A stretch of DNA of 64,000 nucleotides, from contig JAHBBC010000001.1 in assembly GCA_019915015.1 (NCBI GenBank), positions 2,728,001-2,792,000 of the forward strand. The letters are read 5' to 3'. This DNA comes from Auriscalpium vulgare. Taxonomy: Eukaryota; Basidiomycota; Agaricomycetes; Russulales; Auriscalpiaceae. The notes under the pieces were generated by a model. It was not told the origin of the DNA, searched no databases, and saw nothing but the letters and a program-made list of their open reading frames with translations. Shown piece by piece: positions 11,062-61,590 of this stretch; the stretch's first letter is position 1; each line of letters starts with the position of its first letter. The position numbers and the translations under genes are program-made.

Positions 11062-11807
11062 GCTGGGTGTGGGAGTGGATAGAAGGGGATGGGGAGCAGC
11101 ATAGAGTTGAAGAGATATCTTTATATCGGCGTGGTCCCGATCATCTGCGGATGGAGAGCCATAGTGATCGGACTGGCCGAGATGATCATAGTAGCATATC
11201 CGCCGGAAGAACATCCCGCCCACGGGCATCGGCTAGCTCTCAGATATCCACATGGAGATCCCTAGACGAGGACAAGAAAATGTGGGTTGTGCGATGCGCA
11301 TGTGGCCCTGTAGGGGTTGGATGATCATAGAACAGGACTGCCATTCACCGAGGTATTGAACAGGATCAGAGAGGAAAAAGTGCCTGAAGGCTGAGAGAAA
11401 GATGGCCATATACGCACTGATTTCTGGAGCCGTGTGTGCTCGAGCACACAAAGCCTTTGCTACCTCGCGAGGGAGTCTGATCTGAATCCGCCCCCCGGGA
11501 CTCGGAAGCGTCCGGTCCGGTGCAAGCGTGACTGTCGCGTTATGTCACGCTTCGGACCAGTAACGTCTTGTCTCGGGCGACCGGCCAGTCCTGAGTATCC
11601 TGTGACCGCGCGCACCTAGAGGGAAGGCCATCGTGCCTGAGGTCGGCGAGAAGAGGTGGGGATGTCTTCCCGACGACTCGGGATAAAGACAGATACACGG
11701 TATCTGGATCATGAAGTGGCTGTCGAGGGCGCGAGTTATGATATCCACTGTGTCGCTGAGACACCGCCAGACAGTCCGATCAATTACTACAGCACAATGA
11801 GTTGCCT
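11062..11807. other. Upstream region of MDR copy 1
   Basis: About 750 bases between the two tandem MDR genes, holding the promoter of copy 1. It shares short blocks with the region upstream of copy 2, for example GGGCATCGGCTA near 11223 and 13447 and a 23-base identical block at 11528, so the duplication included upstream DNA. No coding frame is convincing. Confidence 0.5.
11528..11550. promoter_or_regulatory. Conserved dyad, copy A (GTGAC-N11-GTCAC)
   Basis: A 23-base block is identical to 14168-14190. It contains the inverted half-sites GTGAC (11528-11532) and GTCAC (11544-11548), 11 bases apart. Surrounding sequence has diverged, so conservation of the block suggests a protein-binding site kept after duplication of the MDR genes. 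The half-site TGAC/GTCA resembles bZIP-type sites, but the factor is only a guess. Confidence 0.4.
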
Positions 11808-13308
11808 TCAATCGTCCGCCACAACTATGACAACCTTCCCTTGATTTCTCCCATCCGACGCATCCCTCAAGCCTTCGCCAACCAGATCCAAACCGCGCTT
11901 GAGGTGCTCTTCGTATTTTATCTTACCATCCTTCACCAATTTTGGCACCTCACGATAGAAGTCGCTGGCGTACTTGTGGAAGATCTTGTAAACGATGAAT
12001 CCGTTCAGGGACAGCGACTTCGTGACGAAGAAAAGCGCATTCTGTCATGATGTCAAGATTAACAAGAAGGTTTTGAAAACTCAGGCTTCCCTTGATGCCA
12101 TAGAGTTCGGAGGCGTTGTACTGGGAGGACATGCCGCATTCCTATATCGAAGGTTCAGGACCGGAATTCTCTGCGGATGGAAATGAGACGAACGATGATA
12201 CGAGCGTAGTCCTTTGCAGCTGCCAATGCAAGATCCAGGGTTTCGCCGCCAACATTATCCCAGTAGCTAGCATGAGAGTGAATCTCCCACTCCGACACCA
12301 GTTGTTTTGCCGAGAAACTCACACGTCGATGGGTCCCTCGCGATCCAGAACATCCTTTGTGCTGTCCTTCTTGTAGTTGAAGGAGACGTCTGCGCCAACA
12401 GCTTTCGCGAAAGCCGCCTTCTCATCCGACCCTGAGGAGGCTATAACTTTCAACCCGTCCAATTTCGCGAGCTGGATGACAAAGCTCCCCACTGCGCCTG
12501 CGGCAGTGGTAACGAAGGCCGTCTCTCCCTGGAGGAAGCAGTCATCAGAAGCGGTATGTTGTGGATTTCTGATGACCCACCAGCTTGGCTTTAGAGAATT
12601 CCTTCCAGCCAACGTATGCGGTCTGACCTACTCGCACCCATCAGAAGTTATAGGACACCGCACTTCTAATACCACTGCACTTACCCGGCATACCGAGGAC
12701 TCCGACAAACAACGACAACGGCAAATTGTACTCATTCTTGAGCACCTCGAACTGCTCTGGGTCTTGGCGAACGAAGTACTCCTCGTGGGCTGGACATGGC
12801 CTCAGGTGTAATCTTCGCTGCCGTGGGAGCTCACTTACGAGTCAATGCCCCGTAGATGTGGTCACCCGGCTTCAGCGCAGAGGACTCGGAGCGCAGAACG
12901 CGTCCGATGCCATAACCGTACAGTCTAGGACGGAAGATGCGTAAAAATTGAATGATCAATAAACCAGACATACGGTTCTCCGATCGCGTAGGCGGGCTAA
13001 AACATAGCCTGCGTCAGGCACATCACAGTATAGGTATGAGGCGCATAGCTACACTGTAGCTTTTGATGCTGGCGTCTCGCATTTTCACCCGCATGTAAGG
13101 ATCGATGGAGAGGATGAGAGTCTTGACAAGAAACCCGCCATGCAACGGCTCATTCTCAAGGTCAATCGTCCTGGAGGTATCATGCGCAGTGTGCTTTCCT
13201 GGTTCTGGTAAACCTGTGGCGCTGTTAGCTCTGGATGAATGGCCGAAGACACGACAAACCAGTCGGGATCTCGATGAAAATGTGACGAGCGTTGGTGACG
13301 GGAGCCAT
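11808..13308 (-). CDS. MDR-superfamily NADP-dependent oxidoreductase, copy 2
   Basis: Tandem paralogue of the gene at 9540-11061, same strand and same exon layout. The start at 13308 opens MAPVTNARHIFIEIPTG. Conserved blocks are TIDLENEPLHGGFLVKTL, the Rossmann loop TTAAGAVGSFVIQLAK near 12465-12510, and VIASSGSDEKAAFAKAVGAD. The last exon contains NGFIVYKIFHKYASDFYREV and ends VVIVVADD with TGA at 11808-11810. Differences from copy 1 are mostly conservative, and introns have diverged more than exons, which suggests both copies are under selection. The upstream region differs from copy 1 by an inserted MITE (13493-13761). The enzyme class is as for copy 1; the substrate cannot be inferred. 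Confidence 0.84.
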
Positions 13309-13492
13309 GCTGGGGAGGTGGGAGATACTAGCGATGACATTCCTTCAGGGAATATTATATGTATCGGAAGACGGAACGCGTTCCCCTTGTCGTTCCGCGG
13401 TGGTGTCACTGATATCGGTTATAGCCGACGGAAGTAATCTGAGGCGGGCATCGGCTATGCCTTCACAAGGACAAAAAGACGATGCTTGGAAG

Positions 13493-43848: not shown

Positions 43849-45081
43849 ACTCTGAGACCACTCTGAGTCGATGCTGGTGCTGGCAGAGCCTCCGAGTCAG
43901 CGTGAAGGCGCGCGAACTTTGGCGCTGGTAGTACGCGGTGGCTCAGTCGGGTGGCGAGCGCATCGGCATCCACAAGGCAAGACCTATCCGTGTACTGTAC
44001 ATGTATATAGTGAATGTAATGAATCCAAAATGTAGCATACTGGTACTCCCGGTCCGCAGGCGACCTTCGCGCAAATCTGATAACTGCAGCCGTATGAAGC
44101 ACAATAAATACCGTATGTACCGTGAATCCATTGCACTCTCAGTCCGCAGGCGACCTTCGGGCCATGCTGATAACTGTAGCTGTATGGTGAAAGATGAAGC
44201 AAAATAGATACCGTGACGTAGATCCATTGCACTCCCAGTCCACAGGCGACCTTCGGGCCATTCTGATAGCTGTAGCCGTATGGTGAAAAAATGGAGCAGA
44301 ATAAAGACCGTATCCATTGCACTCCCAGTCCACAGGCGACCTTCGGGCCATTCTGATTCTGCAAACCGAGAAACGAAACCTGGATGTCTGTACGATCAGG
44401 CTGTCTTGTCGCTTGCAAAGACAGGGCTGAAAACACATAGATAGTGCTGGTCCGCACTGGCACCTCGAGCTCGCGCGAAGATACCGGCGGCCTTGGTGAA
44501 AAGAAAGTTCGACGGGATCTGCCTCTTGTGTGACGGCGCGCACGCGCGTTCAGGAACCAGGCGGGAACTTCGACTGTGCGAGCCTCTCTCTGATGCACGA
44601 GCGACGCGACTCCTACAGAACATGTAAGTGGATGTCTCATACGATCGGTCCAAAGTCGCGCGCACCTGATCATTGCACGATCATAAAGGCGCAGCTCTGT
44701 GCGGGTGGGTACACGCGGAGGCCGTGCAGTGGCAGCCGTGCGTCCAAGCCTTGAGAGCGTTGCATAGGGACAGGAGACAGCGGGGTGAGATGCACTGGTG
44801 GTGCCCGGATATGGGATTGAAGGCACTGTTGGGAGGTTCGAGGAGGGGCAAGAGACAACCACAACAGGCAGAGAAGGCGAGTCACCAGGCGTTGTGCGAG
44901 ACATTCGGGGAGGAGATCCGTCGACGAGGAGAAGTATGCACGCGATGTTTACGAAGGCTTAGCTTGACGACGGTTGGTACGGGAAGTCCACTGGTCGAAT
45001 TTGACGCAGCAACTATCAGCAGAATCAAGTAAGTCACTATCAGGTATAGACCGGAAAACATACCCGTATCGCACGCGTGCT
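43849..45081. other. Repeat-bearing intergenic region
   Basis: About 1.2 kb upstream of the NDUFAF5-like gene. It contains the four-copy minisatellite at 44030-44357. Long minus-strand frames run through the minisatellite but consist of its repeated translation, and no motif is recognised. The part 44360-45080 shows nothing I can name. Confidence 0.45.
44030..44357. repeat. Minisatellite, four copies, period 90-96
   Basis: The core GTCC(A/G)CAGGCGACCTTCG recurs at 44052, 44142, 44238 and 44328, giving spacings of 90, 96 and 90. Between cores are CTGATAACTGTAGCCGTATG and an A-rich part (GAAGCA-AATA-ATACCGT). The third and fourth copies are most alike, so the array grew from right to left or was homogenised there. 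The last copy is cut after its core. Confidence 0.85.
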
Positions 45082-45732
45082 TTATTGCACATATCCGCGC
45101 CCCTTCAGTGCCTGCATGAGAGCCTTCGCAACCCCCTGCGTCTCCTCCATTGCCGCCTGCACATGTTGCAATCTGACCTCGAGATTCCCGATGTATGCAG
45201 CATCCTCAGCGCGGTCATACTCGAGGTCGGCAACCTGTTCGCGAAGCTCGTCCACGAGTGCGATCTGCGCCGCTTGTAAGTTGACGGGCGATTCGCGAGT
45301 GCCGGAAACAGCCTTGCAGCCAGGCATGACCCACTTGAAATTGGCTGGCGCTGACGGGCCGAAGAGATCGTCGCTGTCGGTGGAAGGCGACTGATGGAAC
45401 GAGGGGTCGTAGTCGTCAAGCTCGGGGAACAGAGCGGTCATGTGGGTTGGGCGCCGGCTCGGCCCGGCGCTGTGGCTCGATGGACTCGAGCAGCTGGAGG
45501 GCTGAGTGTAATGAGCGATCCGACGCTCCACCGGCGGCGTGGAAGGGCACTCCGGCAGACCATCGCGGACTTCGGTTGGACCCAGCTCCTTTGGCATCAT
45601 GTCGGGCACCTGAGCCCCAGTGAAAACCCGGTCTGGATCCCTATGCCCCGGTATGCGCAGGTCGGGACAAATGTGCATCCATCTGCGCAATGCGACCCCG
45701 TGACGTAGACACAGCGCGCGTCGTCGCCGCAA
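45082..45732 (-). CDS. Unrecognised protein with C-terminal coiled coil
   Basis: Open minus-strand frame of up to 216 residues. The N-terminal part is Arg/Pro-rich and its start is uncertain: an internal Met in PDMMPKELGPTEVRDGLPEC may be the true start. It continues TQPSSCSSPSSHSAGPSRRP, MTALFPELDDYDPSFHQSPS and PANFKWVMPGCKAV. The end is a clear heptad-type helix: QIALVDELREQVADLEYD, AYIGNLEVRLQHVQAAMEE and stop at 45082. It lies just left of the transposase gene in opposite orientation and could belong to the same element or be an unrelated accessory gene. I do not recognise a family. Confidence 0.5.
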   Translation of the reverse strand: MRRRRALCLRHGVALRRWMHICPDLRIPGHRDPDRVFTGAQVPDMMPKELGPTEVRDGLPECPSTPPVERRIAHYTQPSSCSSPSSHSAGPSRRPTHMTALFPELDDYDPSFHQSPSTDSDDLFGPSAPANFKWVMPGCKAVSGTRESPVNLQAAQIALVDELREQVADLEYDRAEDAAYIGNLEVRLQHVQAAMEETQGVAKALMQALKGRGYVQ

Positions 45733-45779
45733 ATGTACTGTAGACTAGCACAATCCCAGCGCCAGCGCCGCTGCCTCGC

Positions 45780-46015
45780 TGCAACGGCGCTGCTTTGCCG
45801 CTTCGACACCTCGCGCGCATCGTGCTGCCCAAAGCCACGCCGCCTGCGCTGCCAAAGTCGCGCCGCGTCGCCTGCGCCGCCAAATCCGCTCCGCGTCTCC
45901 TGTGCTGCCCTGCGCCGCTCCGTGTAGACTGCGCCGCCAAATCCGCTCCGTGTCGCCTGCGCTGCTGCCTGCGCTGCCCTGCGCCGCTCCGTGTCGCCTG
46001 CGCATAGCCGCTTCT
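45780..46015. repeat. GC-rich direct repeat array upstream of transposase
   Basis: Units such as CTGCGCCGCCAAATCCGCTC, CTGCCCTGCGCCGCTCCGTG and GTCGCCTGCGC recur with partial order changes over about 230 bases, ending 85 bases before the transposase ATG. CACTA elements often carry subterminal arrays of short repeats that bind their own proteins; the position fits that idea, but no end of the element was found. Confidence 0.6.
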
Positions 46016-46099
46016 GCCCCCGTCGTGCGCCTCCATCTGACGCTCGTCCTGGCGGCCTCTCCGCACTGCGTGTTTGCATAGCTCTCTGCGGGACGTACC

Positions 46100-49000
46100 A
46101 TGGCCGAAACCTCTACTGGGAGCTCGGGCCAACGAGCTGCGGCTGTGTACTACTGTGGCTGTCTGCGGTACTGTCGTGGCGATCACTACAAGGCGGTCTC
46201 CAAGTCGACCTACCATGCACATAGCAAATACCGAGACCTGGAGACCCAAGTAGGGCAGCCTGCACCTCGGAAGCGAAGGAGAACCGATGTCTTTGGGGAA
46301 GGGTCCACTTCCCAGGTGAGTGGGCCTGCTAGCGGCTCACGACAGAGTCCTCATCAAAACACACAGCATTCCGCACACGAATCACACGAAGACATACCAG
46401 CTGAGGATACGAGCATATATTCGGGACTGGTGCGTGGCAGTTATGCATTATGAAGCCCGTCGAGCCTGACATGCTATGAACTTGCATAGACACCGCCCAT
46501 GCGTGAACAAAGCCCGCACAGTGACCCTCTATGGACAGAGCCTCAGGACGAGATAGTGCAAGACTTTGAAGGTGCGCTTGGGTCTGATGCCCTATAAACG
46601 TTCGGGAACTGACAGTTTTGCAGGTGAACGCATATCCGAAGATGCCAACAGCCATGCAGGAGGGCACTTGACCGAAGCCTCAGTCGAGGCAACCGCACGG
46701 GTCGATGATTTCGAACTTGAAGGTATGCTACAATGTATAACATACATCCGTATCGATGCTGACTTTCCGAGCAGCCCAGCAGTCCTGGGCACGCCTAGAT
46801 GATCAGGGCAATGCGGATGATGCAACACCTCCGGTGGAAGAAATTGTTGTAAGTCTTTTTTCGTGCTGTGCATCCCAGGATGATCTAATCCTTCCGGCAG
46901 GGCAATATTGAACCAGATTCAGGCAGCCTCACCAGACCGCAAGAGGATGAAGATGACGAAGACGACCTTTACCTCACGCCACCCATTCCTGTCCCTATCC
47001 CCCCACCGCATCCCGAGCACGTCTATGAAGCATTGCCTGATGAATTTGAAGATGAAGAGCTTCCCATCGAGGAGGACGTCCCTCCCGATGACGATGATCT
47101 ACCACAGACAAGTGCTATACCGGAGATCGACATGGTGTTGCGCTTTGTCCATGGCATCAAGAACGCCACTCTCGAGAATGACGGACTCGAGCAGGACATA
47201 GTTCATCGAATACGGCATCCAGTGCAGACCCCAGCCTCTGTTGACGAGCCCGGACACCGCTTGTCGATCCAGATATTCGCCGCCCTCACGCATGCCTCCG
47301 AACAGGCATACCATGACGTCTGCGCCGCTATCCGTCTGGCCCATCCTGAGGACGACCTACTCTCATATTACAGAGTCAAGGCTCTCGTGCGCGATCTAAG
47401 CGGCGTCGAGGCCATTGTCCGGGACTCGTGCGTCGGCTCCTGCATGGCATATACTGGTCCATGGGCGCACCTGGAAGCCTGCATCATCTGCGGACAGCCG
47501 CGCTACGATCCCCGCAAGCTTGCGAAAAGCGGAGGCAAGAAGAAAGAGCCGCGCCAGCAGTTTTACACATTTCCCCTCGGCCTTTCACTCCAAGCCCTAT
47601 TCCGCAGCCCTGAAAGCGCTGACAACATGCATTATCTCGACAGACGCACGGCTGAGGTGTTGGCGGAGATTGCGGAGAACGAAGGCAACATTCCTTCCTA
47701 TGAAGATATCGTCCACGGATCTGACTACATCAAGGCGGTTCAGCGTGGCGACATCGGTCCCGACGACTGTGTGGTCATGTTCTCAATAGACGGCGCACAG
47801 CTGTATCGCAGCAAGAAGTCAGACTGCTGGATCGCTATCTGGGTCCTCTTTGACCTGTCTCCTGGTCTTCGTTACAAGAGGAGACACATTATCCCCGGTG
47901 CTGTCTTTCCTGGTCCGAACCCCCCTCAAAACATGGAATCATTCAACTACCCCGGCCTCCACCATCTATCTGCGATTCAGCGAGAAGGCATCGGAATCTG
48001 GGATGCCTCATCAAATCGTGTCTACAATTCTAAACCATTCTGTTTCTTCATTACTGCGGACCGTCCGGGACTGTCCAAGCTGGATGGAAGGGTTCCGCAC
48101 AACGGCGCACGAGGCTGTCGGATCTACTGTCCTGTCAAAGGACGACATAGGTTTCAGCAGTCGACATACTACCCTGCACTCCTCAAGCCGACGAATTATC
48201 AGGTTGCTGGCTCTGACCATCCAGACATCGATGTCGCCGCCCTCATCGACCACCCGCCTGACCCCAAAGAATATCGCACAAATCTGCAAATAGTCATCAA
48301 GTCTCCGAACGTGACCCAGTATCATCGCCGTCGCCTCTTGACCGGTATATCCAAGCCGAGCCTGTTTCATGGCCTTCCATCCCATGCACGTCTTCCTCTC
48401 CCTCTGGGCTATCCCTTTGACATTATGCATCTGGGTGCTATCAACATCCCAGAACTCTTGGTGAAACTCTGGCGGGCCTTGCTGGAGTGCGAGGGCGGGG
48501 ACAACAAAGCCACCTGGGACTGGGCCGTTCTCCAAGGCGACGTCTGGATAGAGCATGGCAAGGCCGTCGCAGATGCCACGCCCTATCTCCCTGGATCTTT
48601 CGACCGACCGCCGCGCAACCCTGCAGAGAAGATCTCCAGTGGCTACAAGGCCTGGGAATATCTCTTGTATATCTTTGGTCTGGGGCCAGGGCTGCTGTAT
48701 GGTATTCTCCCCGACAAATACTGGAAACACTACTGCAAGCTCGTCTCCGGTATGCGCATCATCCACCAATACAAGATCCCTCGAGACCAGCTGGTCCGAG
48801 CGCACATTCTCTTCGTCGAGTTCTCTCGAGAATACGAAGAGCTGTACTATCAACGGATGCCGGAACGCCTTCATTTCTGCCGGCAGAGCATTCATTCCCT
48901 GGCGCATTTAGTGCCCGAAGCATTTCGAGTCGGGCCACTGGTTGACTACACGCAATGGCCGCTGGAGCGAATCATTGGGCTTCTTGGTGCAGAGATCAAG

Positions 49001-49723
49001 CAGCCCTCCCAGCCTTACGCCAATCTGGCTCAGCGAGCGCTCCGATTCGCCCAAGTCAATGCCCTCTATGCTATCATTCCTGAACTTGCCCCACAGCGCA
49101 CTTCAATACCCCATGGTGCAATTGATCTAGGCAGCGGATATGTCCTGCTTCGCGCTCGGGACTCTTGCTTCCGAGTAGTCAGCCCAGTGGAAAGTCGACT
49201 CATCCTGCAGCGCTATCGCCCGGATGCACAGGGCCCGGATATTGTTCGAGTTATCAAGTGGGCTAGGCTGCGTCTTCCGAATGGGCAAGTTGCGCGGTCT
49301 TGGTGGAAGGAGTCCCTCAAAGAGCTGGAGCACCTTAGGATGGCGAGAATGGTCCAAGTAAGCTGTTCACATTGATCCTGCTCTGGGATTATGCTGACAA
49401 GACTACAGGTGACATTCAACGGCCAGACTAGAATTGCCGAGGTCCGGTACTATTTCCCCGGAATCAACGATGAGCACCTTGCAATGGTCTCGCTATTCTC
49501 GCTGCCCGATGATTTTCTCTTGGCCGAGTCCAGCGGTGCCCTTGCAGTTAGCACCTACCATGGGCTCAACGCTCTTGCAGTTATTCCTGTCCAAGACATC
49601 ATCACAGTGGTAGCTATGGTGCCTTTTCAGGACAGCGAGGATAGGTTTCATCTTGTGGAGAAGCCTGGTGCACAGATGGCTTTCTACAATGGCATTGTGG
49701 AGGAGGTTGTGGATGATGACTAG
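46100..49723 (+). CDS. tnp2/CACTA-type (CMC superfamily) transposase
   Basis: Cut-and-paste DNA transposase of the plant En/Spm tnp2-like group as found in Agaricomycetes. ATG at 46100 opens MAETSTGSSGQRAAAVYYCG; CGCLRYCRGDHYKAVSKSTYHAH looks like a Cys/His zinc-binding motif (only part given as CGCLRYC and YHAH). Four short acidic exons (46480-47030) lead into a long exon with PWAHLEACIICGQPRYDP, the tnp2 block MFSIDGAQLYRSKKSDCWIA then IWVLFDLSPGLRYKRRHI, PGAVFPGPNPPQNMESFNYP, GCRIYCPVKGRH, GYPFDIMHLGAINIPELLVK, YKAWEYLLYIFGLGPG and DYTQWPLERIIGLLGAEIKQ. A last intron (about 49361-49408) joins VTFNGQTRIAEVRYYFPG and the end EEVVDDD, TAG at 49721-49723. About 1,040 residues, no stop or frameshift seen, normal CpG content: it may still be functional. 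Confidence 0.85.
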
Positions 49724-49860
49724 CTGTACAGTTTGTTGAGGCTTGTTTCATTGAGTCTACTATTCAGTCTGCACTATGTCAACAACCCTTTCATTCCTAT
49801 CTGATTGTTCTCTGGTCCCCCCTCCGCCTTACTCAAGTGTGGCATGCTTAAAGGGGTCGC

Positions 49861-51833
49861 CTTTGTATTTAAGCTACAGGAAAAACTTTGCCTGCTTTGC
49901 AAATGCCTGCTTTGCTGTCTCTTGAGCATCTGCCTTTCCAGAGTGCCCTGCTGCTTTAGCCTCTTTCAGTGTAGAGAAACCAGTCTCTGATGCCTGGAAC
50001 ATGCTGGACATGTTGAACCAGACCAAACTGCCTCTGCCTTCTTCATCACCATCCTCTATGGGCCTGCTATTGTCCAGAGTAGGCTGCTCTCCATTCTCAG
50101 TTGTGACAAATTTGATGTCTGTATTATGCAAATCAGTATGAAAATCATACAAGTTGAGACTCTATTACCTGAGATATCAACATTGAAGTGATAAAATAGA
50201 GAGGAGGGATATATAAGCAGCACCCATGGGGGCAGCTCAATAATGATTCCAGCCTCCCAGATTACCAGCCAAGATCTTTTGGTGTGGTTGAATTTAGCTA
50301 GCAATTGTGAGAACTAATGACAAAACAGTAGGTGTCAAGACTTACAGCCTGGCTTCAGGTATACCATTAGAGCACAGACACTGACTGGGTTCTTGGCATC
50401 TGCATGAGGCAGGCAATGAATCCTGGGCATGCCAGAAAAGCAACCATTGATGCATAGGTTCCAGAACAGCCCAAAGTGAGGCTCAATGTCATAGGTAGCT
50501 TTGAACCATGCTGAGGATTTTTCTGATCTCTCCTTGACACCTGGGAAGGCCAGCCCCACAACATGTGAGACAAATGCACTAGGCTTTTATTAACCTCTGA
50601 AAGTATGCAGATTAATTTGCTTACTTCATTCTTTCTATCAAAGGGCTCTCCACAAAGGAATTCACTCTGTCCTGATTTTTCCTATGCCACTGAGTTACTT
50701 GAGGGTGCTATGAGGTGTAAGTGAATTACTTGATACCTCGATTTTGATCAGCTCACCTTTGCAGACTGCCTATAATAGCCAATGATGCAGGCAAAATGTG
50801 GGCCCCTAGATCCCTTCCTGTGTTTTTTCTCAGTCCTGGGATTCTCCAGCTCATGCGCTAAGAGCTTGAGAAACTCTGCCCAGAGCAAGTCATTGTGCTC
50901 CATTAACCAGTCGGCCTGAAATGCTCTGTATAGAAACAGATGCTGGTTCTTGTCTGTGACCCAAAGAGACATTGTTTTACTAGATAATGCTATCAGTTCC
51001 AAAGGCAAGGACTTTGACAAAAGTACAGTACCTGGGCTCTGGGTGATAGGGAAGAGGAAGAAAGTTTCCTAGGAGGGAGAAGATTTCCCCACTCTGATAT
51101 AGAGAAACTATCTTTTTCCTGACCAAGGGTGGGGGAGGGGTCCCTTGCCAGCCAGTTTTAGAGAAGCATCCCTCTGTCAGAATATTGAAAGACTGGATCT
51201 GGATAGCAGGACCCTTTAGGCTGCGATCCCACAGCCTTTTCTGCCTCAGGGGATTAGACCCTTTGTTGATGTTTTCCAGAGCCTTATTATCCCAGAATCT
51301 TTTGCTGGAAGCTGTACCTCTGGTCCTCTTCCTTTTGAAGCCCACAGATGTAGATCCAGGCTGCAAAGGAGCACTGCACTTGGTGGAAACAGCCAATCTA
51401 AGGAATTAAAATGTAAATTTGACAGGAAGTTAATAGGTTCTAAGATCTCACTGAGTTTGGGCATTTTTCCAAGAGACTTTGGGCAAGGGAACAATGAGGC
51501 GGCCCTTAGATTGTGTATATGTAAAGCCTTTAGGGTTCTGTGGGAGAGCATGTGAGCAGAAAAATATTTGAGGCAACCAAGAAATTACCTGAACCATCTC
51601 TTCATCTGAGTCACTTGCCTCATCTGTGACAGGGTCACCAGCCTCACTTGCTGGGGGTTCACTGGCCTCCTCAGATATTTCGCCAGGCTCCAGGTCCTCA
51701 TCCCAAAAGGGAATGGCCACCTCTGAAGCATCCAGCTCTCCGTCTTCCTGGTAAGCCACCCAGCTTTGGACTTCTAGGTCATTTTCTGAAGGCAAGTAAA
51801 AAATGAAAGGCTCAATGTTATGAAAGTTCACAG
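49861..51833. other. CpG-depleted block (about 2 kb)
   Basis: By hand count the 60-base lines from 49861 to 51833 contain about nine CpG in 1,973 bases, at roughly 46 percent G+C, where about one hundred would be expected. TpG and CpA are abundant. Directly to the right, 51840-51900 alone has six or more CpG, and the transposase exons to the left are CpG-rich. The block coincides with all but the first two exons of the dioxygenase gene. Confidence 0.9.
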
Positions 51834-52215
51834 CGCACCTAACAGTTCGCCCTCGTCATCGTATCCCTCCGACTCCGACTCCACCCAGTCGATTTCCCCA
51901 TCGTCACTTCCCGTGAGCATATCTTCAACCTTCTGCTCCTCCTCCGCATCCTCATGTAGCCCATGGACGTGGAAAGTAAGCAGATCCCGCCGAAGCCCGG
52001 CCTGATCGGAGACATAAGCCATGTCTTCGTCGTCTCGATACTCCTCCATGTAGAGATCTAGCAATGCGTCCATGTCACAAGGCGTTGTGACTGACAGGGA
52101 CAAGGCTCCCTAGGCGATCCAGCTGCGTCAGCAAATTTTAGCGTCGCAAAGCAGGAAGACTCACCGCAGGAGGCACTGTGTCTTTGGCAGCCTGGTCTAG
52201 CCCCATGTGGCTCAT
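49874..52215 (-). CDS. TET/JBP-type 2-oxoglutarate/Fe(II) dioxygenase
   Basis: Probable nucleic-acid base dioxygenase; TET/JBP enzymes oxidise 5-methylcytosine or thymine using Fe(II) and 2-oxoglutarate. ATG at 52213-52215 gives MSHMGLDQAAKDTVPPAG; a second exon (ending 51834) continues ALSLSVTTPCDMDALLDLYM with an acidic tail. After a 45-base intron come ENDLEVQSWVAYQEDGEL, a basic exon with KRKRTRGTASSKRFWDNKAL, and FNILTEGCFSKTGWQG, then KNQHLFLYRAFQADWLMEHN, GPHFACIIGYYRQSA, VVGLAFPGVKERSEKSSAWF and INGCFSGMPRIHCLPHADAK. The metal site is HAD (50398-50406). Splicing gives RSWLVIWEAGIIIELPPWV and YPSSLFYHFNVDIS with the distal His at 50188-50190; RGSLVWF carries the likely 2-oxoglutarate Arg (50033-50035). 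It ends QAFAKQAKFFL at 49874. All junctions checked are GT-AG and in frame. Identification rests on motif order from memory, so a related 2OG-oxygenase remains possible. Confidence 0.72.
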
Positions 52216-52654
52216 CTTCCTGTTGCCGATTGCGTCGTAGTCAGCTCAGCAACTCCTCGTACTAACGCACGCCCTTACCTGTAGATCTCGGACGAGGTTT
52301 GGAACAGACGATGTCGAGCACCCGCAGCTGATCGTTATCACAGATCTCGGGCTCCGTAGGTGAGATCTTGGCTTCGCCGCTTCGGCACCGCCTTTTGCAT
52401 CTGCCTCTCACCCGCACTCGCACTCAGTGCTCACACCGCGACACCTCTGCATCACACGGATGTCGGTAATCAAACCTTCGCTCGTCGTCGGTGAAGCAGC
52501 AGCAACGCCGCCCGCTCGCGTATGTTTGTCAGAAAGCATTCCAATGTACAGGTACGCATTGTGGTTCTCTATTTTGAGTTCCAATGAGGAATACTGACTT
52601 GGGGGTTCACAGTGGCTGGACAGGGTGGATTGGATGCGGTTTCATGTGCGAACA
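52216..52654. promoter_or_regulatory. CpG-rich upstream region of the TET/JBP-like gene
   Basis: Region with normal, fairly high CpG density (for example TTCGCCGCTTCGGCACCGC near 52373) directly ahead of the dioxygenase start. It contains a possible 5' leader intron donor (CAG/GTAAGG read on the minus strand near 52278). The right limit of the presumed transposon should lie here, since pseudogene sequence begins near 52655. No terminal motif was found. Confidence 0.4.
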
Positions 52655-53592
52655 GGACCGAGCCTGTTAAAACCACCTACCCCGACCGACGTACAGTCAT
52701 CACACCCGACCTCTCCTCGTGGCCGACCCCCGCGCACACGTCCTGGTCCTACGTCAAATCATGTACCTCACGCTGTCCACGCCCGACGTGCAGAAACTCC
52801 TCGGCAAGATGTCGTTGCCCAGCCGCGCGTCGTCGACGGACCCGGACGAGATCACGGTCGATATCCCGCCGACGCGGCCGACCCTGCACGAGTGCGACGT
52901 CAAGGAGGATGCAGTGACCGTGTATGGCTTCAACAACCTCCCGGACACGTTCCCGACGACGAGCACGGCCGCGCAGCCGCTCGCGGTGAGCAAGCTGATC
53001 GACATCACCCGTCACCAGTGGGCGAGCGCGGGCAGGGTCGAGGTCCTCCCGCTGATCCTGGCGCGTCGTCTCCCTACCACATAATCGCCGGCTTGATTCC
53101 CCGCTTTGTGCAGTGCTAACACGAGGGAAACTTCGCCTGGCAACGTCGAAGACCAACAACACTGCCGTCAAGATCGCGAACCCGAAGACGCTCGAGTTCC
53201 AGGTCGTGCGCACGTCGCTGCTCCCGGGGCTGCTCAAAACCATGCGCGAGAACCGCTGGCCTGCGCTCCCAATCCGCATCTTCGAGGCTGCAGACGTCGT
53301 GTTCACGCGGGCTTCGAGACCGTGCACGGGCTGCTCGACCGCGCGACGGCGATGCTCGAGGTGCCGCGCATCGCGAGCACGGACGCAAAGGCGAAGACGG
53401 GCTACTGCCTTAAGAAGCGGCCCGGTCAATCTCTCCTCCTTCATTTCCCTCCGTCGCGGCACGATCACTGATCGCTGACTCGCCACGCCAGACCCCACCT
53501 TCTTCCACGGCCGCGCAGCGACGATTTGCTACCGCCCGAAGCCTATAGGGCTGCCCGCGGGCGTGCTGCAGACGAGCAAGACTCTCGATAAA
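52655..53592 (+). pseudogene. Phenylalanyl-tRNA synthetase beta subunit, fragment
   Basis: Broken internal part of the cytosolic PheRS beta chain. EPVKTTYPDRRTVITPDLSS (from about 52655) is followed, in another frame, by DVQKLLGKMSLPSRASSTDP, DEITVDIPPTRPTLHECDVK, VYGFNNLPDTFP and [16 protein letters not shown]. The next donor is GC where GT is expected, then an in-frame TAA (53117-53119) and a frameshift stand before [34 protein letters not shown]. Next, a deletion joins [13 protein letters not shown] directly to [20 protein letters not shown], missing about 30-40 codons. DPTFFHGRAATICYRPKP (from about 53510) is the last recognisable block. Start, N-terminal B1-B3 domains and C-terminus are absent. 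It cannot encode an enzyme; a functional copy must be elsewhere. Confidence 0.85.
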
Positions 53593-54445
53593 TGACCGCA
53601 TCCCGCTGTCTCCGTGCGTCCCGCTCTGTCCTCTAGCCGGTGTGTGGGCCTGATTGACGTGCGATGTGCGCTGCAGCGAGGGCATCTCCCGCCTCCACTC
53701 TGCCTCGGTCCCGCACATCAGGGTCCTCGAGTACCTCCGCCGCATCGTGCGCTTCACCAACGTCGAGGTGCGCCCGCCCGGCCAGCCCTCACCCGCCCGC
53801 TGACCGCCCCCGCGCAGAAAACCTGCTTGCTCACCGCGATGCACTACATCGACCAGATCTGCGCGCGCGTGCCGACGTTCGTCGTGTCCTCGCTCACCGT
53901 GCACCGCTTCACGATCACCGCCGTCGCGCTCGCGAGCAAGACGCTCTGCGACTCCTTCTGCGCCAACGCGCACTACGCCCGCATCGGCGGCATCACCACG
54001 CACGAGCTCGCGCGCCTCGAGCGCGAGTTCCTCTTCGCGATCGACTGGCGGCTTACGGCCAGCACCCCCTCTCCTCCCGCGCCCGCGCCTGCTCACACCT
54101 CCCCCGCGCCCCCAGTGCACGCGCGAGGTCCTCCAGCTGTACTACGAGAACCTCGTCGCGCACTCGGGCGGGCGCTTCTTCCTCCTCGGCACGCAGTCCG
54201 CCTCCAGCGCCGTCTCGTCCGACTCGGACGTCGAGATGGCCGACTTTGCGACCTCGCGCTCCGCGTCGCCGAGCAGCACGCAGGTGTCCACCAGCGCCGG
54301 GGACGATGACGCGCCCGTCGCGGTCGCAGGCCCCCCGCCGAGCGCCGTGCCCGAGCCGTTGAACGGGCCGACGCTCGAGCAGAACATGGGCTCGAGCAGA
54401 ACATGGCGTTCAGTTCCAGCGGTCGCGCGGGCTGCCATAGGGTAG
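53575..54445 (+). pseudogene. PHO80-like cyclin, N-terminally truncated
   Basis: Cyclin of the PHO80/PCL type (partner of a Pho85-type kinase in nutrient signalling). Readable exons: NDRIPLSP ending at 53613; EGISRLHSASVPHIRVLEYL and RRIVRFTNVE (53677-53767); KTCLLTAMHYIDQICARVPT, FVVSSLTVHRFTITAVALAS, KTLCDSFCANAHYARIGGIT and LEREFLFAIDWRLT (from 53818); and CTREVLQLYYENLVAHSGGR, then a Ser/Asp-rich tail ending at 54445. The cyclin box is well conserved. But the frame before NDRIPLSP runs straight into PheRS pseudogene sequence, no start codon or N-terminal helix is seen, and the donor after DWRLT is GC, not GT. I call it a truncated copy, though a distant 5' exon cannot be excluded. Confidence 0.65.
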
Positions 54446-54559
54446 CCGCAGAGATCTTGCAGCACTTTACATCTCATGACACTGATTGTATTCATAACTA
54501 AAAGCAGCACACTGGACACCTCGGTAACAGACAGAAAGCGGATGGTGTGATATAAGTAC

Positions 54560-55165
54560 GGTACATGCACAGTGGTACGTGACGCCCTCGTTGTTGACGT
54601 TCTTGTCGTAGATGCCGTTCAGCCACTTGGTGGCGGGGTGCGAGGGGCAGGGGGCGGTGTGCGAGGGGCAGGAGGCGGTGTGCGAGGGGCAGGAGGCACG
54701 GTGCGAGGGGCAGGGGGCGCGGTGCGTGCGGAGGAGGTAGTGCGCGCGGGTGGCGCGGTGCGTGCGGGGACAGTAGGGGCGGAAGCGCAAGTCAGCATCT
54801 ACCGACCTACCCTGCACAGCTGCGCTGCCTCTCCTGCTCGCGGTGGAGCCGGAGCGCGTGCTCGCGCTGCGCCTGCTCCGCGTGGGCCTGGACGGCAAGC
54901 TGCTCGAGCTGCCGGTCGAACGCCGCGGCCTCGCGCTGGTGGAGCCGCGCGGCCGCCTCGCGCGCTCTCTCGGCGGCGTGCAGCTCTGCTAGGGCGCGGC
55001 GGTAGCGCGCCTCGGAGGCCTGGAGGTCGGTGGGGGCGAACAGGGCGGCGTAGTCGTCGGTGGGGCTGAGGTACGGTCGCGAGTACGGGGCATGCGGCGC
55101 GGGGAAGTACGCGGGGTACGCGCTAGGGCTGGGAGAATGGATGTGGCGGGCTGGGTGCTATGCGC
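54560..55165 (-). CDS. Unrecognised coiled-coil protein with Pro-rich C-terminal repeats (partial model)
   Basis: On the minus strand, an exon from about 55162 (after an AG acceptor) reads PSPSAYPAYFPAPHAPYSRP, YLSPTDDYAALFAPTDLQAS and then an Ala/Glu/Arg-rich helix: EARYRRALAELHAAERAREA, RQLEQLAVQAHAEQAQREHA. A donor near 54822 is followed by a region with four 21-base repeats that reads as Pro-rich heptads, then possibly KWLNGIYDKNVNNEGVTYHC. The 5' exon and the true end are not established. The composition is typical of disordered, low-conservation fungal proteins. No family recognised. Confidence 0.4.
54641..54724. repeat. Four-copy 21-bp G-rich tandem repeat
   Basis: GCGAGGGGCAGG(G/A)GGC starts units at 54641, 54662, 54683 and 54704, period exactly 21. 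As a multiple of three it keeps any coding frame and gives a Pro-rich heptad on the minus strand. Runs of four or five G make it a candidate G-quadruplex former on the plus strand. Confidence 0.85.
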
Positions 55166-56028
55166 GGAGCAGTCAGTAAGGCAGGGTTGTGTCGCGAACG
55201 AAGAGGCTGCGCGCCTGTGTGCTGCCAGCTGGCAACGCGTCGCAGAGGTGGAACCGCGCCGAGGCGCGTAGTCCTGCGGCGCGCGGCCTGCTGCCGTGCG
55301 CGGAGAGGCGGAGAAAGCGCCCGTGCGAGGTGGAATCGGGCCCCGCACGGCGCGAAGAAAAAATGCGCCGGCAGCTCCGGGCAGTGGGAGAAGCCCGGAG
55401 CTGCTGCTGCTGCTTGACTCACCGGAGTGCTAACCAAGTAGGCGGGTGAGGTAGAGGAGGGCGTATAAGAGAGACGAGTGGTGCACGGCGCCCCGCTCAA
55501 GCTGAGCGCGCTTCTGGCGAGGCAACCGTGCTGGCAGGAAGAGGAGGGTGGAGGCGCGGTTTTGAACAGTGACGAGGTCACACGAAAGGTGTGACAATCA
55601 ACAAACAATCAACAAAGACGTGGCCGCCGGCACGTGCCCAACGCGTCGCGCGCCTTCTCTGCACGGTGCGTTTCACTCGACGACATGGCCCGCCTATCTG
55701 TTCATCTGGACTGGTCCGTCGCTGCCTCGCAGTGCGTGTTTGCGCGCGCGCGCGCGCGGGTCGCCTGGTCGCAGGCATAGTGCGCGCGCTGACGCATAAG
55801 CGGCTGCTAGCTGCTGCTATCGTGCCCTCTAAACTAAGTATGACATCGCGCAGGTCTAAGGCGATTGCTGGATGAGATTTCAATGCGCTTTCACCTGCAA
55901 TCTACATGGTTATAGCTTTTTGATAAGCAGAAATCCAGACCAGTCTTCAGGAAGGCATGTCTTTGTTCATGGAGATGCATATCATGTAGTTTACATGATG
56001 TTTGTTGTACAAGAATTTTTACCCTTCT
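55166..56028. other. Intergenic, mixed composition
   Basis: GC-rich up to about 55860, including an alternating GCGCGCGCGCGCGCGC run near 55742-55757. Then comes an A/T-rich, CpG-poor piece of about 160 bases (55880-56040) that contrasts sharply with both sides. No coding motif was recognised. Confidence 0.5.
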
Positions 56029-56819
56029 TCATGCCCTTTTCTTCGAGTCCACACGAGCCCGCTTGGCCAGAGGTGAAGGCGACTCGGCGTCTGAGCGCGA
56101 AGGCCCAGGCTCAGTGTCCCTATGACACCGTGTCAGGAAAACGAGCGAACGGTCTATGCTAATAGCACACTCACCTGCGTCTGGATGGGCCCGCACGCGT
56201 CCTCGGCGTGTGGAGCTGCAGGCGCGGAAGAGGGGACTTCCTGCGCCAGTCCAACGCAGCGTCCGGCTCCTCAATGAGCCTGCGCACGCTGGAGGGCATG
56301 TGAGTGACGTCGGGGAGGCTGAAGTTACCCTCCAGGAACTGGGTCACCCCAACGTCGAAGGGGCTGGAAAGACGCGTCGAGTGCGCGCGTACAGGCGGCT
56401 GGGCGATGTTGGATTGAGTGGGGCTGATGTTGGTGGAGTGAACGGGTGTAGACTCCTCGGTGTGGCTGCTCGGGGGAGGACTAACGGTGTTAGTCGGCAG
56501 GACGGGGTTCCGGGATGGGGCTCGGCTGCCTGCTGGTGAAGCCGGCGCGAGACCGGGCGATGGAGCCGCGTTTGCAGCGGTGGCAGGGAGTTCGGAAGCT
56601 TCGCGGATGGGGGTGGTCGGGATGGAGTGGACAGACTGGACGGGTGAAGAGCCTGCTTGCGCAGACTCCGACGAGCTGTATGCTGTCGCGATGGACTGGA
56701 AGCGTATATGCTAAAAAACATGAGAACGATAGCTAATAACAAGATGAAAGAGAGCTCACCGCACCAATGCCCACCGATGCTGGCCTGTAAATGACATCCA
56801 CGCTGCCATGCCCTTGCAT
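56029..56819 (-). CDS. Unrecognised Ser/Pro-rich protein
   Basis: Minus-strand gene of at least three exons. A Met at 56819 opens MQGHGSVDVIYRPASVGIGA; the true start may be in an upstream exon. After an intron (about 56714-56759), HIRFQSIATAYSSSESAQAG begins a long Ser/Pro/Thr-rich exon with SSPFDVGVTQFLEGNFSLPD and IEEPDAALDWRRKSPLPR. A last intron (about 56125-56176) leads to DTEPGPSRSDAESPSPLAKR and a Lys/Arg-rich end at 56029 that could be a nuclear signal. Exons join in frame with GT-AG ends, so I believe it is a real or recently real gene. No family recognised. Confidence 0.5.
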
Positions 56820-57146
56820 GACCACTTCGACAGACTCCAAGGCGTCCTATGCCAGGAAATCAGCAGCATGTCATGAAAAAGCAACCGGAATGACTGACTC
56901 TAGAGGACATCCTTGTAGCCGAGTATCAGAGAAGGAAGCGCAGGAGGTGGTGTGAGCAGAGGAAGAAGTGCGGAGATGGCAAGAAGCGCAAGACGCGCAC
57001 GACAAGTGCAGAGGGCACACGCGATCACATGATTGGGGACACTCGCATCGGCGAGGTAGCGATCGGCTACGTCACTTGCCTCTTGTCGTCCCCAACCACT
57101 TGACGGCCTCTCTCTTTGCCATCGTCGACCTGCTGGCAACATAGCT

Positions 57147-59711
57147 ATGGACCAACCTCTGGACTTGGGGGATTCCTTTCCTTCTTCACGCGAATCCAAC
57201 TCTCCAGAGCTCTCTCTTGACTTAGGCGACAGTTTCAGAGCTCCTGTCCGATACTTGTCATCTAGCCCTGCCGTCGACACCCTGTCACAAGCATATCATG
57301 AGCGAGAATACTACAGTGGCTCAACGACACCCATTCTGGAGCTTCCATTTGAGTTCAATGCTGTGCGTAATTGCTACTCTATGGCCTTTCGTATTACTAA
57401 CTTCTATACCCTGGCTGTGACGCAGCGAAACGAGCGGGTCGAGAGACGTTCCTTCACCGCGTCTGGCCCTGCGCTCCAGGGCACCCAAGTCATGCCGATC
57501 GACAAATACCACACCCTCGCCAAAGCGTACAATGACTTACAAGCATCTCATGCAAGACTTGAAGAGAAGGTAGCAGAAATGCGCGCGGACATTGTGATGC
57601 TCAAGTATGTGATCTTGCCGTTCATTTATCCCATCCTCTCTGATACGCGGCCGTACTATGTGTGCAGGATGACTCTTTCTCAGGATCTGACTACATCGAT
57701 GGTGCCGAAATACTCTCGATCCTCGTCGACTGCTACGCCTGGGGCCAGTCTTGTTCTGCCTGGCAGCTCAACGGCGCCGCCGACGTCTTATGAGGACATG
57801 ATTAATTCCTACTCGACTGCCCCGCTTCCTGAACAGCTCAAGAGGGATGCCTATCCCAGCGTCCGCTTCTGGCGGAGGAAGGAATACGAGGCTGTCGTGG
57901 CTGCCAAGAAGAACAGCGCAAATCTAACGGGCAAGAAAGCTAGCGACATTGCTTATCCCTGGCTCGAGCGAGAAGATGGTAGCATTATCAACGACGAGGA
58001 TGTCATCGACCTCAGGCACTCGATGAAGACGGTCTTCCAGATACTCGCTGCTCGCAATATCGCGCCTGATACCTGGGGTTCCGCATCTCCGGAAGCTCAG
58101 AACATAGCCAGGCACTGGCTGTACAAAGACGCTCCGTACCTGAGGCTCTGCCGGGGCCACTGGAAGCTCGATAAGATGGTGACAGAGCAGTACCCCCAGT
58201 ATAAGAAGACGAGGCGCAATAAATCGAAGCCAAGCACTTCCGCAGAGGACGCTGCGCCAGCCTCACAGCAAGTCGCTACAAGCAGCAAGCGGCCTGCCCC
58301 TGCTACCGGCGCTGGCTCAAGCAAGCGTCATAAACGCGACGCTCCAGCAGGTACGTCGCAACCAACTGTCGCTTGGCTGAGCTTTTGACATGCATCTTTC
58401 GTAGCGTCTGTGGAATTCAGCGAAGTGCCAGCGCCGCCCGCCGCACCGGCTGGCCCTGCGGAGGCTATTGATCCATCGTCTGCAGCATTGAAGGATGCTA
58501 CGGATTCTTTTGCGTGAGTATCTACCTGTCTCTGCTTGTTATAGCTCACTCTTGGCCGCAAGCAGATCCGCACCTTTGTCCTCAACCAGTGGAAATGATA
58601 ACCCGGCGACACCGGCCTCGTCCAGCACCTCCGAGCTGCCCTCCTCAGCCAACGGATCTGAAGCTACCCCCATCACATCTAGCAACATCACCGCAGCGGC
58701 AGCGCTCGACGCAACATGCGCGAGCAACATGGTCAATGATGGTTTCGCCAGCACAGCGACAAAAAATGCTGAGCCTGCGGAGACTGCCTTGACGAGCGGC
58801 CTCGGCAACACGACAACTATCAAGCCCTCCACCCCTGCTGGCAGCATCAACGTCGTGCTAACGGGTGGCAGCCCTGTCGCTCCTCTCATCAATAGCAACG
58901 TTTCGGCCAGGGAAGCCGGGATGACGGCCGTTTCTACTGACAGCGTTGCAAAGCGGGCTGCACCTATCGAAGTAAGTCCATCGCCGACTTGACATTCTTT
59001 TCTTTGCTGACCGCAGCACGACATGCACGTGCTTACTCGGGCAGGTTGTGAACGTTCTGTCAGTGTCATATTGCCACAATTTCCGCTTCCTTGCTAATAC
59101 CGCTTTCCAAGAAGCAAGGACCTCTTTCCGGGACGCGCAACGGACTCGGTCTCTAGATGGGCCCCTCCAGCAGAATCCGGTGCGTCTACGAGTGCTCTCT
59201 GTCTTCCTGCTCACAGTTCGATCAATGCAGGTTCTTCAAAACGGTCAGGTAAACCTCAAAACGCTACAAACGGTGCGTCTACGGGCACTTTCTGCATCTA
59301 CCTGCTCACATTCGCATCAATCAGGCTCCTCCAAGGCGTCTGGCAGTGCGCCGTCCACCGCTCCCGGTGCGTCTATCAGCACAGCGGGCCAAGCGAAGGC
59401 AACAGGCGACAAGTCTATCAAACCCAGCAAGACATCCAACACCGTCCGGTGAGTTCTGTGCTGTGCTCGATGTATCGCAGCTGAGAGCATCAACGACAAG
59501 AAATTTATACATGCAAGAGTGCAAGATACGCGATCCGAAAATGACGAACGACGAGTTTCAGAAGGCATTTGATGGCATAGATGGAGAAACTCGCTTGGTG
59601 CGTACTACTTGCTCAGTCTGCGGTCCTCTACTGATGCATCTGTCTCAGCGACTCGAACAGGAGAGCCAGGCAGCTAAAGCCTTGGAGAAGGAGAAGAAGA
59701 ACAACACGTAG
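57147..59711 (+). CDS. Unrecognised nuclear-type protein of an accessory fungal family
   Basis: Plus-strand gene of several exons. ATG at 57147: MDQPLDLGDSFPSSRESNSP. A helix IDKYHTLAKAYNDLQASHAR, LEEKVAEMRADIVMLK follows. The best conserved-looking part is YPSVRFWRRKEYEAVVAAKK, DVIDLRHSMKTVFQILAARN and KDAPYLRLCRGHWKLDKMVT, ahead of a basic segment with KKTRRNKSKP. From memory, similar proteins are amplified in Agaricomycete genomes near transposons, without known function. From 58400 on, Ser/Thr/Ala-rich low-complexity exons (for example SSTSELPSSANGSEATP) follow, then a short helix NLYMQECKIRDPKMTNDEFQ and an end KALEKEKKNN at 59711. The 3' exon joins are less certain than the 5' part. Confidence 0.5.
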
Positions 59712-60161
59712 GCTCACCGGCTGCGGGAGAATGGTACGCTGTCTGCCTACAATGCCTGACTTTCGACTTATCGAACGACTTAGCGATCGGGCGGGCTGTG
59801 GGCGCGGGACGCAGACGCAGGGCAGGTGAGTGGGATGGCTCCATATGCGCCCATCTGGCGTGGTATGCAGATTGCGGCGGATGCGGGGCAGGTGGCTGGG
59901 AATGGCGCAGATGGCTCTGTATGCGCCCATATGGCATGGTATGCAAAATTCGGACGGTATTGGAATGGCATCTGGAGGCATATGTATTCATAAGGAGTCA
60001 GAAATTGGCATAATGGTGCATATTATCGCATGACAACGAAGCAGAAAATGGCAGATTCTGTCATACAAAAGTCCAGATTTTGTGCCTTTATCTGACCTGG
60101 TCTGACGGCCCCACACGTGCAGAAATCAGCATACTGGGGCATATGGGGCCAGACCGGTTTC
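59712..60161. repeat. Intergenic with imperfect direct repeat
   Basis: A segment near 59836-59880 (GGCTCCATATGCGCCCATCT, then GGCGTGGTATGCA) recurs near 59913-59955 (GGCTCTGTATGCGCCCATAT, then GGCATGGTATGCA), period about 78, with several mismatches. No gene is seen here. Confidence 0.6.
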
Positions 60162-61590
60162 TCACTGGGCCTGAGCGTCCACCGTGAACGCAAGATCCTC
60201 CACGAAGGCGTTGTCCGCCCCGCCGATCGTAGCGAGCGCCGTGTTGCTCCGCGCATCCTCCGGGACGAGTAGCGCCTCGAGCGCCTCTACCTCCTCAGCG
60301 GCTTGCCGTTTGGTCTCAGCGAGTTCCTTCTGCACAATGAGGAGCTGTGCGTTGACCATGCTGAGACTGGCGTCTTGTTCAGCGGCTGAAACCCTGGCGT
60401 CGTAGAGGGCCTCGCCCCGAAGCTTGTCATTCTCATGACTGAGTGCAGCGGCCCCGCCCTGTGCTTCGGCCAGTTCTCCCTGGAGACGTGCGACATCTGC
60501 TTGAAGAGCACCAGATGCTGATCGCAGGCCAGAGATGGTCGTGTCCGCAGACTGTTGTTGACGATCGGCGTCAGCCGCAGCAGTAGCGAGAGCGGCGAGG
60601 AGTTGAGCAGCCCGATGCTTGCTGTCTGCATCCTTCCTCTCTGCGACCCGGAGTTGCTTGTCGCGAGATTGGATGGTGGCGCGGAGGGCGTCCTCTTGTC
60701 TGCGAGCGTCCTCATTCTCAGCCTGGACGGCAACCTGCTGCGACTCCAGACGTGCGATAGTCGCGTTCAGCAGCTCGAAATGGGATGACTGGCGAGTGGC
60801 TTCTTCACGAGCGGCGCGCAGGAGTCCGCTTTGAGCCTCGAAGTCGAGGGCGAGTTCAAGTCGGTTGGTCTCCGCGGCCTCGGCGTATGCAGTCATCTGC
60901 TGGATGAGCGACTCTTGCTCGAGCGTCTTCTGGAGGAACGCGTGCTTGCCCTTGCGCAGGCTTTGAGTCGCGCTGACAGACAGCTGAGAGTCGGCTTTGC
61001 GGGCGTCCTGGAGTCGCTTGAGCTCGGCAGCCCTCGCGAGTTCGCGCTTCTGGAGTTCCTGAAGCTGGGCCTTGATCTGCGTGTAGTGCGGTCAGTGATT
61101 CAGCCTAGTAAAAAGAAAAGAAATACGCACCAAGGCATTCCCGCGTGCGTATGCCGCGGCAGCTCGAACAAGCAGGACCACCCCGAGGACGACAAGGGCA
61201 CATCCAGACTGTCGGTGATATGTAGATAAGGGCTAAGCACACAGTGACAGATGGAAAACCTACCAGGGCGGTGGCATGCGACCAGACGTGGCTGGGCTGT
61301 GGCTGGCGACCTTGCTCCAGGGCGATGAGGGCGTCCACCGATACAGTGTGCCCGACAGACGGCTGCGGGGCGTTCACGACCTCGAGTACTTGGCACGAGG
61401 AACTTGGAAGCGGGGAAACGAGGAGAACCGGGAGGGGGTCGACGGGGAGCGGGGCAGGAGCGGCTGGCATAAGACCGATGTCAGTCTCGCGCCCACCGAG
61501 GGTCAAGACGTTGGAGCTAAAGTAGTTGAAGGGGTCGCTCAGCTTCAGAAGCTGAACAGCAGCGAAGATGAAGAAGAGTGCGAAGATCAT
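60162..61590 (-). CDS. Unrecognised membrane-anchored coiled-coil protein
   Basis: The start at about 61590 gives MIFALFFIFAAVQLLKLSDP, a hydrophobic N-terminus (signal or anchor). Then LPVDPLPVLLVSPLPSSSCQ and VDALIALEQGRQPQPSHVWS follow. After an intron a second hydrophobic helix, SGCALVVLGVVLLVRAAAAY, is seen. A second intron (about 61084-61131) leads to one long heptad-rich exon: QELQKRELARAAELKRLQDA, ALRATIQSRDKQLRVAERKD, LQADVARLQGELAEAQGG and AEEVEALEALLVPED, ending at 60162. About 420 residues. The layout suggests a membrane-tethered filament or scaffold protein; I recognise no family. Confidence 0.55.

Follow-up and report, generated by a model that had tools for sequence, protein, structure and literature searches.

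Genes for TET enzymes reside in many fungal DNA transposons and have moved between transposon superfamilies (Kojima 2025, PMC12730594), according to the main text of that study, from which the words CpG and integrase are absent. Transposable elements of basidiomycetes carry methylation in the CG context, as stated in passages of two other reports (PMC7862722, PMC5974365). The locus described here, within a window of 64 kb (the whole stretch of DNA that was analysed), holds a TET/JBP-like dioxygenase gene that has lost nearly all of its CpG dinucleotides while retaining an intact reading frame, and that resides in a Tnp2-type DNA transposon. No CpG-depleted TET gene was found in the open-licence literature when searched by title or abstract opening. 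We consider it likely, with some reservations that are presented below, that the loss is a scar of old, dense CpG methylation on the gene and its 3′ neighbourhood, which would later have been captured by the transposon.

The TET-like gene occupies positions 49874..52073 on the minus strand and comprises nine exons (1 to 5 at 52073-51839, 51785-51589, 51537-51452, 51397-51032 and 50979-50757; 6 to 9 at 50707-50625, 50578-50346, 50297-50169 and 50118-49874) encoding 598 amino acids, an assignment that draws on splicing, on homologs and on the fold of a homolog. Splicing was carried out by hand, guided by related proteins, and the homolog alignment agrees with the outcome. The first-pass annotation of this DNA had reported an intact spliced frame with GT-AG sites, as is evident once the eight introns of 46-54 bp are removed, all eight of which have GT-AG boundaries. 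The corresponding genes on contigs C26 and C11 end two codons beyond the end of the copy in the window (C1).

When the protein and 11 homologs were scanned against Pfam, including Tet_JBP, no match exceeded the cut-off, and a distant paralog in the genome gave an E value of 0.017 with Tet_JBP, which is also below the cut-off. Searches of PDB sequences with the protein yielded no match, nor did those with the distant paralog. For PF20515, there was no match in this genome or in any of 14 control genomes, and therefore this family is uninformative on absence. The best structural matches to a model of homolog P0001 are CcTET, TET2, NgTET and CMD1, and the gene product is predicted to be TET/JBP-like, with a double-stranded beta-helix fold nearest to those of known TET enzymes. 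The TET fold of this homolog argues for an enzyme that acts on methylated bases, as the first-pass annotation had supposed. Identity to CcTET of Coprinopsis cinerea (PDB 7vpn, 8jkk, 7w5p) is only 10-14% in the structural alignments. The putative iron triad (HxD...H) formed by H455-x-D457 and H511 is invariant in 17 of 17 aligned sequences, as is R546, a candidate 2-oxoglutarate-binding arginine. According to the main text of PMC12730594, PE-type TET/JBP proteins carry HxE, whereas the HxD present in all 17 sequences sets this gene apart from that type. AG-type proteins carry Gly or Ser at H+5 and Asp at H+11, positions that by ungapped counting are filled here by N460 and A466. The enzyme probably oxidises 5-methylcytosine and probably assists its carrier in escaping silencing. 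The best named homologs of both the gene product and the transposase of its carrier come from Hericium, Dentipellis, Artomyces and Auriscalpium, which belong to the Russulales, and the named homologs are all from mushroom-type fungi.

Positions 49861-51833 contain seven CpG dinucleotides, corresponding to an observed/expected ratio (o/e) of 0.07, versus 1.03 for the window as a whole. The first-pass annotation had counted about nine CpG against roughly 100 expected. Its count is too high, but the depletion is real and the expectation is sound (~101, counted on 49874-51833). Steps of 200 bp through the tract, an examination that had also been proposed, give o/e values of 0 to 0.2, and a scan of the 64-kb window for low-CpG tracts revealed none besides this one. 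Its longest CpG-free run is 881 bp, whereas the longest runs elsewhere (tract and left edge excluded) are 158 bp at 55886-56044 and then 116 bp. The flanks had been described as CpG-rich, which is correct for the right flank, where the edge is sharp and located at exon 1. This description fails on the left, where depletion extends for ~225 bp before 49861 (two CpG in 49637-49863 versus 12.5 expected), such that the entire tract, which has no strand, spans 49637..51833.

Both TpG and CpA are elevated in the tract (1.32 and 1.23, versus 1.15 and 1.09 in the window) and TpA shows no rise (0.63 versus 0.68), in accord with what had been noted by inspection. The loss is strand-symmetric, with 147 TG versus 119 expected and 164 CA versus 124 expected. 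Judging from sequence, methylation would be the simplest cause of this loss. However, the CpG deficit of 94 is larger than the combined gain of 68 in TpG and CpA, which counts against the methylation-scar reading.

Codon choice does not account for this deficit. Exons 2-9 carry six CpG versus 90 expected, and reassignment of the gene's own synonymous codons in 2000 shuffles gives a mean of 38 and a minimum of 25; with the codon usage of the neighbouring transposase, the mean is 94 and the minimum is 73. The third codon position is C in three of 157 cases before G versus 127 of 363 cases before other bases. Arginine is encoded by two CGN and 20 AGR codons, versus 51 and 10 in the transposase. 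The introns are CpG-depleted as well. Comparison of the C1 and C11 copies yields a dN/dS of 0.17, which supports the conclusion, anticipated by the first-pass annotation, that the protein was maintained by selection during CpG loss.

Exon 1 (51839..52073, minus strand) is CpG-normal, with 18 CpG and an o/e of 1.13, and the 5′ flank of the C1 gene has an o/e of 0.83. These regions are relevant to the proposal that selection has favoured a methylation-proof gene, wherein a CpG-free demethylase gene escapes silencing by CpG methylation. Such selection could explain why five subfamily copies are depleted while ten of ten other TET-like frames and six of six unlinked integrase cores are not. However, CpG is retained where silencing should act, at exon 1 of C1, C26, C95 and C11 and at the C1 5′ flank; the introns and the neighbouring integrase have also been depleted, and the same loss is seen in a WD40 frame elsewhere in the genome. 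Selection of this kind is very unlikely to be the explanation.

The carrier of the gene is a 14.55-kb DNA transposon (45616..60169, plus strand), as established by inverted repeats, a target duplication, a second copy and an empty site. Its terminal inverted repeats are imperfect and ~41 bp in length, and are located at 45616..45656 (plus strand; terminus CCCAGTGA) and at 60129..60169 (minus strand). The target-site duplication CCTGAGC is present at 45609..45615 and at 60170..60176. Removal of the element together with one duplication leaves, in the examined stretch, a 482-aa host frame that reads through the site. The two portions of the host gene split by the element are 60177-61091 and 45001-45615. 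The second copy, on contig C26, is bounded by another 7-bp duplication (GGTCAGC) and shows 99.85% identity across 10 kb. Genome-wide, the left end of the element was located 14 times, with five of these matching at 96-100%. A Tnp2-type transposase open frame (46889..49375, plus strand; o/e 0.89) matches PF02992 with an E value of 3.8e-8 and a score of 33.2 bits (cut-off 28.6), and its last exon probably lies within 49376-49723.

Several other features of the window were recorded. Positions 57060-58388 of the element hold a 442-aa open frame that has no Pfam match and is perhaps a second element protein. Further sequences lie at 52632-53582, which is a captured fragment 88-89% like C21:64316-65333 that belongs to the inverted block described below and has no match in the C95 copy, and at 53582-54575, which is a shared fragment resembling C28:398912-399985 at 94-96% and C95:1368-2355 at 95%. 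In the captured fragment, part of the frame (52671-53084) may correspond to a phenylalanyl-tRNA synthetase beta chain. Outside the element, a 1.5-kb direct repeat spans 9539-13324, with its two units (9539-11075 and 11807-13324) being 79% identical.

Only part of the transposon bears the depletion. Flanking an inverted block that includes the gene, the o/e is 0.93 on one side and 0.92 on the other, and within the block it is 1.19 over 52320-55891. The block extends from 49864 to 55891, the right edge being approximate, and is inverted relative to C11, C95 and three short derivatives (C57, C7 and C20). This inversion is evident from the derivatives, wherein 49865 is joined to 55893 with the order reversed, and from C11 and C95, where the sequence found at window position 55892 comes directly after the gene end. 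A relative of the element on contig C4 (1682503 on) matches up to window position 49827 and again from 55970 with no gene match, and thus it is without the TET-like block. At 49669-49717, four CpG of this TET-less relative are TpG in the window and a fifth is GpG; at 49825 the difference runs in the opposite direction, with CpG in the window and TpG in the relative. The CpG-poor segment 49637-49863 is also present in the C57 and C20 derivatives, which are without the gene, a fact that bears on whether methylation might have spread from the gene.

The sequence beginning at 55892 (55892..55963, minus strand) is a CpG-free remnant, 72 bp long, from the 3′ end of an integrase-core gene, and the 158-bp CpG-free run that surrounds it is part of the same story as the tract. 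On C11, C95 and C4, the TET-like gene lies tail-to-tail with integrase-core transposase sequence (PF24764). This sequence is most complete on C11, whereas C95 carries a truncated piece followed by another copy, and on C4 only the first part is seen. Its o/e is 0.18 on C11, 0.09 and 0.13 on C95, and 0.23 on C4. Neither ends nor a long inverted repeat of a gene-plus-integrase transposon were found in the stretches scanned around C11, C95 and C4, and therefore the pair is best described as a neighbourhood common to these loci, which may perhaps also be a mobile unit. The integrase-type neighbour may be related to the IS3EU group of PMC12730594. IS3EU elements have TAYGG..CCRTA ends and a 6-bp duplication, and no fitting pair was found in the stretches scanned near these three copies.

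The subfamily includes at least five copies (C1, C26, C11, C95 and C4). The first-pass annotation had suggested comparing related copies, and all five of these prove to be CpG-depleted. C1, C26 and C11 are free of internal stops, whereas C95 is frame-shifted. Because the depleted state is common to C1 and C11, most of the CpG loss occurred before these two copies split. Exon 1 has an o/e of 0.85-1.13 in C1, C26, C95 and C11, whereas the homologous N-terminal frame of C4 (L034 6331-5927) is CpG-free, demonstrating that the boundary at exon 1 is not fixed and that the extent of depletion varies by locus.

At non-CpG sites, C1 and C11 have diverged by 8.3% (5′ flank), 7.8% (exon 1) and 8.0% (intron 1 to exon 3). 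Because the divergence is ~8% on both sides, the CpG boundary is not a junction that arose after C1 and C11 split. Over 51400-49864, however, the divergence is only 1.5%, which counts against the scar reading and perhaps hints at a mosaic history or gene conversion. Across exon 1 and the 5′ flank, 36% of CpG sites differ between these copies, versus 12% for GpC and 13-23% for six other dinucleotides, with all of these rates inflated by counting a site if it is present in either copy.

An older junction would be expected if, ahead of the C1-C11 split, a CpG-normal 5′ end had been joined to a CpG-poor body of greater age. The sharp transition between exon 1 and intron 1 in C1, C26, C11 and C95, the CpG-free matching part of C4 and the mosaic divergence would each suit such a joining of two sources. 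Nevertheless, we find this origin unlikely, given that the boundary coincides with the edge of an exon and that the exon-1 protein is, by eye, like the matching parts of C4 and P0001. Another possible source of a depleted two-gene block at several loci, with the relatives examined elsewhere in the genome unaffected, is horizontal acquisition of this unit from a genome poor in CpG. We give this possibility very little weight, since the introns are short (46-54 bp), the named homologs come only from mushroom-type fungi, and the CpG-normal exon 1 and 5′ flank have diverged as much as the adjoining depleted part.

Evidence for more recent change comes from the elements on C1 and C26, which differ by 12 substitutions in a comparison that covered 11.25 kb, with 56578-59877 left out. 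Six are CpG/TpG or CpG/CpA differences, and a further two are CpG transversions. Given that CpG accounts for ~15% of sites, six or more of 12 would be expected by chance with P ~0.005, a rough value for changes whose direction is unpolarised, and from these differences it looks as if CpG decay is also recent. Repeat-induced point mutation of the TCG type, as in basidiomycetes, would act on repeated sequence such as this, and could produce a pattern in which half of the differences between two young copies are at CpG. However, the seven residual CpG show no preference of context (TCG 3, GCG 3 and CCG 1), TpA is not raised, internal stops are missing from C1, C26 and C11, and the other repeats examined (six of six integrase cores) are CpG-normal. 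This mechanism is distinctly unlikely to account for the tract.

The depletion had initially been described as extreme, which is true of its degree but not of its uniqueness. Six 5-kb stretches were chosen, with their sequence unseen, from a random list of 60, and one of the six contains an unrelated open frame of 725 aa with WD40 repeats and a CpG-poor tract of 1.7 kb (o/e 0.13). The first-pass annotation had named low values in many unrelated genes as grounds for refutation, and this outcome is thus partly realised. This frame (L054:2519-4693) has 13 WD40 stretches and joins a CpG-poor part and a CpG-normal end in one frame. CpG depletion is therefore not unique to the TET-like gene. Likewise, a stretch that was not randomly chosen contains a 703-aa open frame (L043:3-2111), also unrelated, that has an o/e of 0.30 and no Pfam match. 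In a background of 206 kb, low-CpG tracts make up 5.4%, and four tracts including that of the window reach at least 1 kb. This background (the 64-kb window, 112 kb around distant TET-like matches and 30 kb from the six stretches) is not a random sample, because the 112 kb were chosen for those matches. Of at least 39 distant TET-like matches, ten open frames were examined and all ten have an o/e of 0.86-1.03, and of some ten other places with integrase cores, six were examined and all six have 0.91-1.19; both findings count against the scar reading. These CpG-normal frames and cores, along with the carrier outside the block, argue against a general depletion of repeats. DNA methyltransferase matches (PF00145) are present at three loci, and KDZ transposase matches number at least 168 genome-wide.

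According to the methylation-scar reading, which we favour, the gene body and its 3′ neighbourhood would have been densely CpG-methylated for a long time. Deamination would have converted methylated CpG to TpG and CpA on both strands, while selection preserved the protein and its splice sites. Most of the loss would have taken place while the gene was tail-to-tail with an integrase-type transposase gene, as it still is on C11, C95 and C4. The gene and an integrase stub would then have been captured by a Tnp2-type DNA transposon, a direction of capture that we infer, with the block becoming inverted there, and the element would subsequently have moved to C1 and C26. In favour of this reading are the strand symmetry and the lack of context preference among residual CpG, the codon usage at third positions and for arginine, the low dN/dS, the depletion common to all five copies and to the adjoining integrase sequence, the equal divergence across the CpG boundary, the CpG differences between the young elements on C1 and C26, the TpG found in place of CpG of the TET-less relative, and the DNA methyltransferase matches. 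Besides the points already named against it, the CpG-free N-terminal frame of C4 and the opposite difference at 49825 do not fit it. Given that the loss is common to the copies and that the carrier is otherwise CpG-normal, it predates arrival at the C1 site, and the tract therefore says little about present methylation at this site. Another reading holds that the TET-like product acts in cis on its own methylated gene and neighbour, and that the oxidised cytosines mutate to T, with the locus eventually so short of CpG that CpG methylation could not silence it any more. We judge this to be highly improbable, but if true, the gene would become methylation-proof by its own activity wherever it is resident long enough.

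The findings provide a stepwise case, from a mushroom-type fungus, of a TET-like gene entering a new kind of transposon. They also make its methylation history testable, by using gene copies with and without a CpG-normal exon 1 and by comparing depleted integrase sequences with CpG-normal unlinked relatives. Moreover, they serve as a warning that CpG loss in a fungal gene may be inherited from an earlier location and need not indicate local methylation.

The element shares features with two known transposon groups. Like EnSpm/CACTA elements it has a Tnp2-type transposase, but those elements have 3-bp duplications and CAC..GTG ends, whereas the duplications here are 7 bp (CCTGAGC and GGTCAGC) and the ends are CCCAGTG..CACTGGG. 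Kyakuja (KDZ) elements also generate 7-bp target duplications, but they have CA..TG ends without inverted repeats, unlike the ~41-bp imperfect repeats, CCC..GGG ends and Tnp2 transposase observed here. In comparison with basidiomycete elements described in the passages noted above as CG-methylated, depletion is found here only in the TET-like cargo and its neighbourhood, with the young carrier spared. The TET-bearing transposons described in the main text of PMC12730594 are alike in their TET/JBP-like cargo, superfamily switching and maintained reading frame, and are unlike this carrier in its Tnp2 transposase, 7-bp duplications and CCCAGTG..CACTGGG ends. That text gives one case of >70% identity, whereas the copies in two settings here are 94% identical in DNA. 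Relative to that account, the Tnp2-type carrier with 7-bp duplications, the earlier integrase-type neighbour, the recent transfer and the CpG record are new.
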